Of a stretch of 44,446 nucleotides of DNA, positions 29,523-30,054 are shown one piece after another. Source of the DNA: Bacteroidales bacterium (GTDB lineage: Bacteria > Bacteroidota > Bacteroidia > Bacteroidales > UBA12077); contig JANQHE010000081.1 in assembly GCA_028282785.1 (NCBI GenBank), forward strand, positions 1 through 44,446, in the 5' to 3' direction. The notes under the pieces are model-generated. The model saw only the letters and a list, made by a program, of their open reading frames with translations. It did no database searches and was not told where the DNA came from. A program made the position numbers and the translations under genes. Numbering within the stretch: position 1 is the stretch's first letter; the number at the start of each line of letters is the position of its first letter.

Positions 29523-29556
29523 AGTCGTTCATTTAAGCCGCATAAAGATATAAAAA

Positions 29557-29576
29557 AACCCTCACGAATGAGGGTT
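29557..29576 (-). terminator. intrinsic terminator distal to the tRNA-Leu locus
   Basis: A perfect 8-bp stem (29557-29564 with 29569-29576, arm AACCCTCA, loop CGAA), followed on the minus strand by a T run. It lies 10 bp past the duplicated tRNA 3' end and may be the original terminator of the tRNA gene before the insertion. Confidence 0.85.
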
Positions 29577-29586
29577 GACTTTATTA

Positions 29587-29612
29587 TTTGTAGCTGGAGT
29601 CGGGATCGAACC
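29587..29612 (-). repeat. duplicated tRNA-Leu 3' end (att-like direct repeat)
   Basis: These 26 bp match 29942-29967 at 25 positions and cover the T-arm and 3' acceptor strand of tRNA-Leu. The single change (G for C at 29594 on the plus strand) would break an acceptor base pair. No matching 5' tRNA half adjoins it, so it is a remnant, not a gene. Confidence 0.85.
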
Positions 29613-29626
29613 TGCCTGGATTCTCC

Positions 29627-29642
29627 GGCAGACAGGTCTGCC
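29627..29642. repeat. GC-rich palindrome in the spacer
   Basis: GGCAGAC-AG-GTCTGCC is a perfect 7-bp inverted repeat. It sits in a stretch (29611-29667) much richer in G+C than its surroundings, with further partial repeats CCTGCCT at 29611 and AGACAGG at 29656. Similar CCTGCC/GGCAGG palindromes occur scattered through some Bacteroidota genomes. Confidence 0.6.
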
Positions 29643-29668
29643 CGGCTACGCAGTTAGACAGGCCGGCA

Positions 29669-29905
29669 CTACAACTGGTGCTTCAACCAGCGCTTACCAG
29701 ATGCTTTTAAAAATATTTCTCTCTTATGCTTGCTGATTGTCTACCTGTTGTCTTTTCAGAATAAACCAACTTAAAAGGAGCAATAAGGTTTTGTGCTTCT
29801 ATTTTGTCTCTGATTATGTTGATTAAGCCTTCTTTCCAAATGATCAGTTATTCCAACATATAACCAATCCTTTTTCAAGCTTTTTATTGCATAAACATAA
29901 TACAT
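29669..29905 (-). pseudogene. GIY-YIG nuclease-domain gene, broken by frameshifts
   Basis: The frame opens at ATG 29905 and reads MYYVYAIKSLKKDWLYVGIT with DHLERRLNQHN, the GIY-YIG core (the GIY equivalent is YVY, and YVG is the YIG motif, followed by the Arg-containing helix). It stops at 29771 after 44 codons. In a shifted frame the expected continuation PFKLVYSEKTTGRQSA appears. In a third frame the typical family ending KREIFLKASGKRWLKHQL appears, with a stop at 29669. Total span is 237 bp, the normal length (about 80 aa) for these single-domain proteins. At least two frameshifts are therefore needed, so it is decayed (or misread at T runs). The direction is that of tRNA-Leu, whose 3' end lies 40 bp upstream. 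Confidence 0.8.
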
Positions 29906-29918
29906 GATTTTTACTTAA

Positions 29919-29944
29919 AAAGCTCATCGTAGAAGATGAGCTTT
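29919..29944 (-). terminator. intrinsic terminator directly after tRNA-Leu
   Basis: A 10-bp stem (29919-29928 with 29935-29944, arm AAAGCTCATC, loop GTAGAA). On the minus strand it begins next to the tRNA 3' end and continues into TTAAGTAAAA. It separates the tRNA from the GIY-YIG remnant. Confidence 0.75.
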
Positions 29945-29945
29945 G

Positions 29946-30029
29946 TACCTGGAGTCGGGATCGAACCGACACGGACTAATGTCCACTGGTGTTTGAGACC
30001 AGCGCGTCTACCAATTCCGCCATCCAGGC
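29946..30029 (-). tRNA. tRNA-Leu (anticodon CAA)
   Basis: The minus strand gives a complete class II tRNA: acceptor GCCTGGA/TCCAGGT (first pair G-U), D-arm with GGAATTGGTAGAC, anticodon stem CTGGT/ACCAG with loop CTCAAAC (anticodon CAA at 29993-29995), a long variable arm, T-arm GTCGG/CCGAC with loop TTCGATC, and discriminator A. CCA is not encoded. A consensus promoter lies just upstream (30055-30085). It decodes UUG. Its 3' 26 bp are duplicated at 29587-29612. Confidence 0.95.
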
Positions 30030-30054
30030 AAGTAGATCTAAAAATATCGGATTG

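Follow-up and report, generated by a model that had tools for sequence, protein, structure and literature searches.

We found that a tRNA-Leu(CAA) gene in the window, the 44,446-nt stretch of Bacteroidales DNA analysed here, carries a minimal GIY-YIG element, one of a tRNA-invading class that is real and widespread. The element is inserted into the tRNA gene, restores the tRNA part that it displaces and leaves the displaced part behind as a dead copy split by palindrome-type inserts; across the class, nuclease specificity goes with tRNA isotype. A preliminary description of this DNA had proposed a class of tiny tRNA-targeting GIY-YIG elements, and such a class exists, a split tRNA copy being present in 64 of 73 loci with a nearby tRNA. 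The present analysis adds elements on the tRNA 5' side, the palindrome-split dead copy, isotype-bound specificity and tandem arrays to that reading. The unit is probably a minimal homing-type mobile element, in which the nuclease would cut the tRNA gene, repair would copy in the cassette and the dead copy would be uncuttable.

Structure of the tRNA-Leu locus and its empty counterparts

On the minus strand of the window, the tRNA-Leu(CAA) gene is followed by a hairpin, a broken GIY-YIG frame, a GC-rich stretch of 52 bp, a copy of the tRNA 3' end and a second terminator, with the following features:

29945..30029, minus strand: intact tRNA-Leu(CAA), the target gene, its 3' part restored by the insert (ARAGORN; Rfam)
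29919..29944, minus strand: terminator-like hairpin between the tRNA and the nuclease gene, part of the insert (DNA fold z -5.25)
29675..29905, minus strand: decayed single-domain GIY-YIG nuclease gene (intact relative 78 aa; 68% identity to the protein of genome G016; three in-frame stops)
29663..29669, minus strand: dead tRNA copy, part 1, 5' strand of the T stem, GTGCCGG (by reading; same place in L005, the G016 locus)
29637..29662, minus strand: first of two palindrome-type inserts, lying at G53^T54 in the dead tRNA copy (L005 has one of the same 26-nt type)
29611..29636, minus strand: second palindrome-type insert (CCTGTCT...AGGCAGG), adjoining the first (by reading)
29590..29610, minus strand: dead tRNA copy, part 2, T loop to acceptor end, closing the insert (20/21 identical to the tRNA)
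29557..29576, minus strand: original terminator of the tRNA-Leu gene, now beyond the insert (fold z -5.30; terminator scan; matches empty-site terminators)

The intact tRNA and a near-identical 26-bp copy of its 3' end had been recognised beforehand, and this direct repeat (29587-29612 and 29942-29967; 25 of 26 identical, spacing 355 bp) was the sole direct-repeat family found within 29540-30040. The remnant is present but longer than described, because the dead copy continues past the spacer as GTGCCGG at 29663-29669, where the host tRNA has GTGTCGG; it covers 28 tRNA positions only. The GC-rich palindromic spacer (29611-29662) is also present, but it reads as having been inserted into the dead tRNA copy, precisely at the junction of G53 and T54 in standard tRNA numbering. 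Its folding as single-stranded DNA is marginal (29607-29669: z -1.5, 21/200 shuffles as good), as is that of the G016 spacer (z -0.87, 34/200 shuffles as good).

The nuclease frame starts with an ATG at 29905, its match spans 29675-29905, and it is broken by one TGA, one TAG and one TAA. Its open 44-aa start alone matched Pfam GIY-YIG at 1.4e-10, in agreement with the decayed single-domain gene first described. The terminator proposed directly after the tRNA holds as a hairpin but was not picked up by a simple terminator scan, which 29557-29576 passes. A hairpin like 29919-29944 is also found in G016 and, by reading, is absent at the same place in the empty sites.

A search for the region covered 39 genomes, namely the window's own (G000) and its relatives, 20 of them in the same genus. 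The tRNA-Leu site was empty in 18 of these 20, each with one tRNA-Leu, and a second tRNA piece was present in the window genome and G016 only. The 18 empty sites share a neighbourhood of the tRNA-Leu and a gene for a 148-aa, presumably deaminase-like protein, with a 637-aa gene on the opposite side in 17. A terminator directly follows the tRNA in 17 of the 18; in G001 (L022), the deaminase-like sequence comes immediately after the tRNA. Comparison of genomes with and without the insertion revealed a clean junction at the empty sister sites. G004, which pairs with the window genome on the deaminase-gene tree (support 91/93), has an empty site, and its sequence after the tRNA corresponds to the window sequence after the remnant; the window unit is therefore an insertion and the second terminator is the native one, as had been supposed.

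G016 carries an intact element (L005/L089) encoding a 78-aa GIY-YIG protein, with a dead copy made of GTGTCGG, a 26-nt insert and TTCGATCCCGACTCCAGGTAC, ending 332 bp after the tRNA. The window tRNA-Leu is identical over 85/85 bases to the tRNA of both the empty G004 site and the occupied G016 site. In line with the small integrase-free unit originally described, GIY-YIG is the only frame in the insert's own direction in the 355-bp window element and the 332-bp G016 element, and no integrase gene was found among frames in that direction. An assembly artefact is unlikely, since the structure is common to two separate assemblies, G000 and G016, the latter on a 1.39-Mb contig.

Presence and absence with clean junctions at an allelic site were observed at this tRNA-Leu, at a tRNA-Arg of the same genus and at a tRNA-Arg of another genus. 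Among 10 other same-genus genomes, the first tRNA-Arg site (L035 in the window's genome) was empty in four (G004, G007 and G003 judged by sequence, G002 judged by match coordinates), was occupied in G006 and G009, and gave no clear call in the remaining four. The second is a tandem element in G193; its counterpart is empty in G662, where the matches from the two sides share 22 bp at the 5' end of the tRNA, is shorter in G659 and is occupied in G089.

Distribution, specificity and selection of the nuclease family

To survey the family, contigs were scanned by protein similarity with four Leu-type proteins, and the best 80 of 147 confirmed stretches were analysed. These 80 loci were mostly from Bacteroidota, with eight named candidate-phyla lineages, and also included Omnitrophota, Ignavibacterium, Balneolaceae and an Akkermansiaceae bin. 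A same-strand tRNA lay within 300 bp in 70 of the 80 loci, and these tRNAs were 66 Leu (several anticodons), 2 Arg, 1 Trp and 1 Asn. The other ten loci had a tRNA-Leu further off (L092, L122, L133), a contig end (L091, L095, L143) or no tRNA near (L114, L120, L147, L155; L114 with a tRNA-Gly 0.9 kb away). All 85 tRNAs within 330 bp were on the strand of the nuclease gene (75 loci counted). Flanking direct repeats of at least 25 bits, some of them tandem units, were detected in 73 of 78 loci with enough flank, compared to 3 of 143 control positions in the same loci.

A split tRNA copy (insert 13-77 nt) was found in 64 of the 73 loci, from the best 80 of 147, that have a tRNA within 450 bp (65 rows, L005 and L089 being one locus), compared to 7/73 on reverse-complemented and 5/73 on shuffled flanks. 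The procedure is permissive, with four of the 64 rows below 40 bits (L115, L132, L145, L168), of which L115 and L145 look like chance; at 40 or more summed bits, 60 copies stood against 0 and 0 in the controls. No split copy was found in 16 of the best 80 of 147 loci. The left part ended exactly at G53 in 26 of the 36 downstream copies and at tRNA position 9-33 in 27 of the 28 upstream copies. CCTGYCT or AGGYAG was present in 50 of the 64 inserts, compared to 2 and 0 in the controls.

When the split arm was searched by pattern alone in 395 genomes of the class, it occurred at 11 places in 7 genomes (reversed control 0), and a nuclease gene adjoined 9 of the 11. These represent six separate loci, namely two at tRNA-Ser, two at tRNA-Leu and two of G494 without a tRNA call. 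L172 and L173 are palindrome-plus-T-arm matches with no nuclease gene or tRNA in the 3 kb inspected. L169 and L174 show the same element at tRNA-Ser genes, and their nucleases are close to those of the Leu type; a long variable arm is common to Leu and Ser tRNAs.

Bacteroidota elements are of both the 5' and the 3' type, and the nine candidate-phyla elements near a tRNA are all of the 5' type (L105, L107, L109, L112, L128, L130, L136, L138, L159). The candidate-phyla proteins are 56-82% identical to their best Bacteroidota match, which suggests transfer across phyla, bin errors aside. No relatives were found on plasmids; among phages, 12 records matched, all below 60% identity and none covering 80% of the query, and 22 candidate stretches in viral contigs yielded 0 confirmed. 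A phage or plasmid origin was rejected on these grounds.

The intact 78-aa protein matched Pfam PF01541 at E 1.2e-17 over residues 1-71, and Y5, Y16, G18, R26 and E62 are invariant in 18 aligned proteins. By this domain match and the conserved Tyr, Gly, Arg and Glu of the catalytic domain (PMC2988022), it is a member of the GIY-YIG nuclease family. The domain fills residues 1-71 of 78, with no separate DNA-binding domain, unlike I-TevI as portrayed there (PMC2988022). The only solved sequences matched were PDB 1zg2 and 1ywl (E 1.2e-4 and 1.8e-4), UPF0213 proteins that likewise have one small GIY-YIG domain. An intron-encoded endonuclease was rejected, the NCBIfam group I intron model scoring 20 bits against a cut-off of 56.

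On a nuclease tree of 118 rows and 78 columns, with 7/112 inner branches starred, association with Leu or Arg changes 3 times among the 88 rows so labelled. The Arg label needs 5 changes (shuffled mean 17; 0/500 as low). Whether the element lies on the 5' or the 3' side switches 21 times over 96 rows. The label Glu of L046 on this tree is wrong, as its dead copies are, by reading, tRNA-Arg. How so small a nuclease tells tRNA isotypes apart becomes testable. The dN/dS ratio was 0.05-0.15 in 8 pairs, with dS above 1 in four of them and four from the same Algoriphagus group, and 2 further pairs were saturated; by this measure, the protein evolves under purifying selection.

The window's own genome encodes nuclease relatives at ten places (11 rows), six within 300 bp of a tRNA or tmRNA (Leu, Arg, Ser, Gly, Val, tmRNA) and four not. 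Dead copies are visible at Leu, Arg and Val; none was seen within 260 bp on each side at Ser and tmRNA, and the Gly case runs into a contig end. The tRNA-Arg element (L035) is a mirror image of the window element: the native promoter region is followed by the tRNA 5' half split by CCTGCCTGCCGGCAGGCAGG, then the nuclease gene and the intact tRNA, inside which a TAG serves as the nuclease stop codon. In four 5'-side tRNA-Arg elements (L035 and L049, both on the minus strand, L053 and L055), the nuclease frame runs about 10 bases into the working tRNA gene before it stops, and the tRNA and nuclease would therefore share one transcript. In L038 (G000:C24), the tmRNA gene at 1290-1710 itself contains a CCTGCCGGCAGGCAGG-type palindrome, and after it comes a GIY-YIG gene from a different clade. 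By reading, a dead tRNA-Val copy lies 3' of the nuclease gene in L042 (G000:C69), its anticodon arm interrupted by a palindrome-like insert and its T arm by a longer, separate one.

Proposed mechanism, dispersed palindromes and alternative explanations

As we picture it, the 78-aa GIY-YIG nuclease would cut the tRNA gene of one isotype, here Leu, at the point of the intact gene where the palindrome marks the dead copy. Recombinational repair from an element-bearing copy would then add the cassette, which would bring the nuclease gene and replace the tRNA half that the insertion had displaced; the host would thereby retain a functional tRNA. The displaced half would stay behind as a dead copy, interrupted by the palindrome at the presumed cut site and thereby safe from renewed cutting. 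We infer cutting of the empty allele from the position of the palindrome in the dead copy and from the precedent of phage SegB, and assignment to the homing elements would depend on this cut. Since the restored tRNA is intact and open to renewed cutting, further units could stack into tandem arrays. The window element itself is now decayed.

Several observations bear on this mechanism. In the occupied allele, the dead copy is split in 64/73 loci, yet the working tRNA sequence is unchanged; because the intact tRNA of the carrier is identical to the empty-site tRNA, self-cutting should be a problem. Cutting of the carrier's own tRNA gene would account for the arrays. The dead copies of 5'-type elements lack the T arm, and a different cut site has to be supposed for them. 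A flank test, which gave a value for 30 of the 36 3'-type loci, revealed that the DNA between the tRNA and the nuclease gene is a near copy (at least 80%) of the host flank beyond the dead copy in 16/30 and unlike it (below 50%) in 10/30, including G016; the window is of the latter kind by reading. Entry thus often involves a duplication of host DNA located past the tRNA; this is not what plain homing from distant donors predicts, and it points to local duplication or template switching in repair rather than plain crossing-over with distant donors. Dead copies had a mean identity of 98% to their own tRNA and 77% to the same-anticodon tRNAs of other loci. The own tRNA was strictly best for 31/52 dead copies (2 expected), a figure biased by picking the segments through alignment to the own tRNA.

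CCTGCC-family palindromes also seem to move on their own. In the window's genome, 24 sites match CCTGCCTGCCGGCAGGCAGG with at most two mismatches (reversed control 0); 15 of these loci were inspected, and one was a tRNA element. At 1501-1520 of L079 (G000:C18:9666-9685), the palindrome forms a 21-bp in-frame insertion in a gene that we take to be peptidase-like; the insertion is present in G000 and G010 and absent in the six other relatives aligned. Within the order, the palindrome (one mismatch) was found in 22/198 genomes, 21 of which hold a GIY-YIG relative (E <= 1e-6), compared to 47 of the 176 genomes without it (Fisher p 3e-10); this link is a correlation, and some counted palindromes belong to the elements themselves. 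All 11 genomes with two or more palindromes hold a GIY-YIG relative (p 4e-6). Leaving out palindromes seen in elements, among the matches listed, the figures were 18/19 and 50/179. One genome of the 22, G071, has the palindrome but no nuclease match at E <= 1e-6, and the richest, G213, has 30 palindromes and two weak nuclease matches only. It is conceivable, if somewhat doubtful, that one GIY-YIG family drives the movement of both the tRNA cassette and the dispersed CCTGCC palindromes; the palindromes would then be its non-autonomous, REP-like offspring that mark the cut site as immune. If so, a GIY-YIG nuclease would power a system of the REP type and be a possible mover of the palindromes. 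REP palindromes with RAYT, as described in the available part of PMC3733652, are similar in being short, dispersed, sometimes inside genes and tied to the gene of a DNA-cutting enzyme; they differ in their tag sequences, in using an HUH tyrosine transposase and in having no tie to tRNA copies described there. The palindrome string itself occurred in 0 papers among open-licence full texts.

The dispersal over 24 places and the insertion of a palindrome by itself, as in the 21-bp in-frame case of G000 and G010, would also fit palindromes as the mobile agent, REP-like and moved by another factor, with the GIY-YIG gene and the tRNA duplications as by-products of repeat-driven recombination. We regard this as unlikely, as it leaves unexplained both the tRNA isotype specificity of the nuclease clades and the purifying selection on the nuclease.

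A direct repeat of a tRNA 3' end is also the classic footprint of ordinary integrase-borne tRNA elements, of which the unit could be a remnant, the tyrosine recombinase being lost or acting in trans and the GIY-YIG gene being cargo. This is quite improbable: loci retrieved through the nuclease alone repeatedly show the same small unit, 28/64 split copies are on the tRNA 5' side, dead copies carry palindromes, and the 332- and 355-bp inserts have no room for an integrase and no frame but GIY-YIG in their own direction. The lack of plasmid relatives and the weak phage relatives, none confirmed in viral contigs, likewise argue against it.

Purifying selection would equally be expected of a nuclease that serves the host, for example in tRNA gene amplification or DNA repair, with the dead copies as tandem-duplication scars, and SegB amplifies tRNA genes to the profit of the phage (PMC13096335). 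Host service nevertheless has little probability, given the patchy presence (18/20 genus members have no element at this site), the decay of the window copy and the mostly single intact target tRNA beside the element in the loci inspected, by which dosage does not seem raised; L255, with two intact tRNA-Val, is an exception. Finally, we rejected the possibility, raised with the preliminary description, that the remnant comes from the end of a second tandem tRNA-Leu gene that was formerly complete, which is extremely unlikely: dead copies cover more of the tRNA in some other loci, but all 18 empty genus sites have one tRNA-Leu without a second piece and the window copy spans 28 tRNA positions.

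Related systems and tandem arrays

The homing-type reading can be set beside known systems. SegB proteins are larger than 78 aa and share the GIY-YIG domain with the present nuclease, as compared by description. T6 SegB is a free-standing GIY-YIG homing endonuclease, and the purified enzyme cuts phage DNA within tRNA genes (PMC13096335). Of its sites, 23/83 share the motif RAWTSGAAC, which raises cutting and is not strictly needed (PMC13096335). The reverse complement, GTTCSAWTY, reads like a T loop; by reading, it fits 8/9 positions of the window tRNA T loop and 9/9 of that of tRNA-Arg, and the palindrome of the 3'-type elements sits between its first G and T. SegB drives tandem amplification of the tRNA-segB segment by recombination, for which recombination genes are needed and in which catalytic mutants fail, and free-standing GIY-YIG enzymes cut the donor allele inefficiently (PMC13096335). 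By analogy, SegB supports the proposed route of cutting and repair.

T4 and T6 SegB resemble the present elements in the GIY-YIG domain, in the gene lying beside tRNA genes and in cutting within the tRNA at a T-loop-like motif (PMC13096335, PMC2988022). Both also occur in tandem tRNA-nuclease arrays, those of SegB arising through recombination (PMC13096335). In contrast, SegB genes are phage genes without isotype preference across phages, whereas the present elements are chromosomal, encode 78 aa and are isotype-bound, and no palindrome-split dead tRNA copy is described for SegB in the available part of that paper (PMC13096335).

The fungal mitochondrial mORFs (Allomyces atp6; Glomus atp6, atp9, cox2 and nad3) are similar in that an endonuclease gene, on entering another gene, supplies a new 3' end for it while the displaced native end stays behind, the atp9 case being GIY-YIG (PMC3630166). 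They differ in affecting mitochondrial protein genes, with no palindromes described in the portion of PMC3630166 available, whereas the present elements displace the 3' or 5' part of a bacterial tRNA gene. GIY-YIG genes also occur in non-intron insertions within the rRNA genes of CPR bacteria, which concern rRNA rather than tRNA and whose spread by homing the authors thought unlikely (PMC11270868, as far as available). By analogy with fungal mORFs and phage SegB, the present elements would work as a homing element with gene-part displacement. Among the matches listed from open-licence full texts, no GIY-YIG elements inserted in bacterial tRNA genes were described. The elements, which occur in Bacteroidota and candidate-phyla bacteria among others, offer a concrete explanation for the split tRNA pieces that can lie beside tRNA genes in these bacteria. 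They suggest that one catalytic domain of 78 aa may be enough for an element to spread by itself using the tRNA genes of bacterial chromosomes.

Tandem units were present in several loci. More than one nuclease gene was found in 7 of the best 80 of 147 loci, one of them cut by a contig end, and tandem units also occurred in L045, L046, L052, L060 and L063, with L045 and L091 looking like one locus. At the tRNA-Val locus of G010 (L254, 349-1082; G010:C31), seven dead tRNA-Val pieces with a period of about 96 bp are followed by the working tRNA and the nuclease gene; a palindrome replaces the anticodon arm in all of the pieces, and another lies in the D arm in all but the last. L255 (294-2001; G024:C3) holds a row of dead tRNA-Val copies with replaced anticodon arms, two nuclease genes and the two intact tRNA-Val. 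ARAGORN still calls these dead Val copies, as odd tRNAs, and copies of this type are a source of false tRNA annotations.
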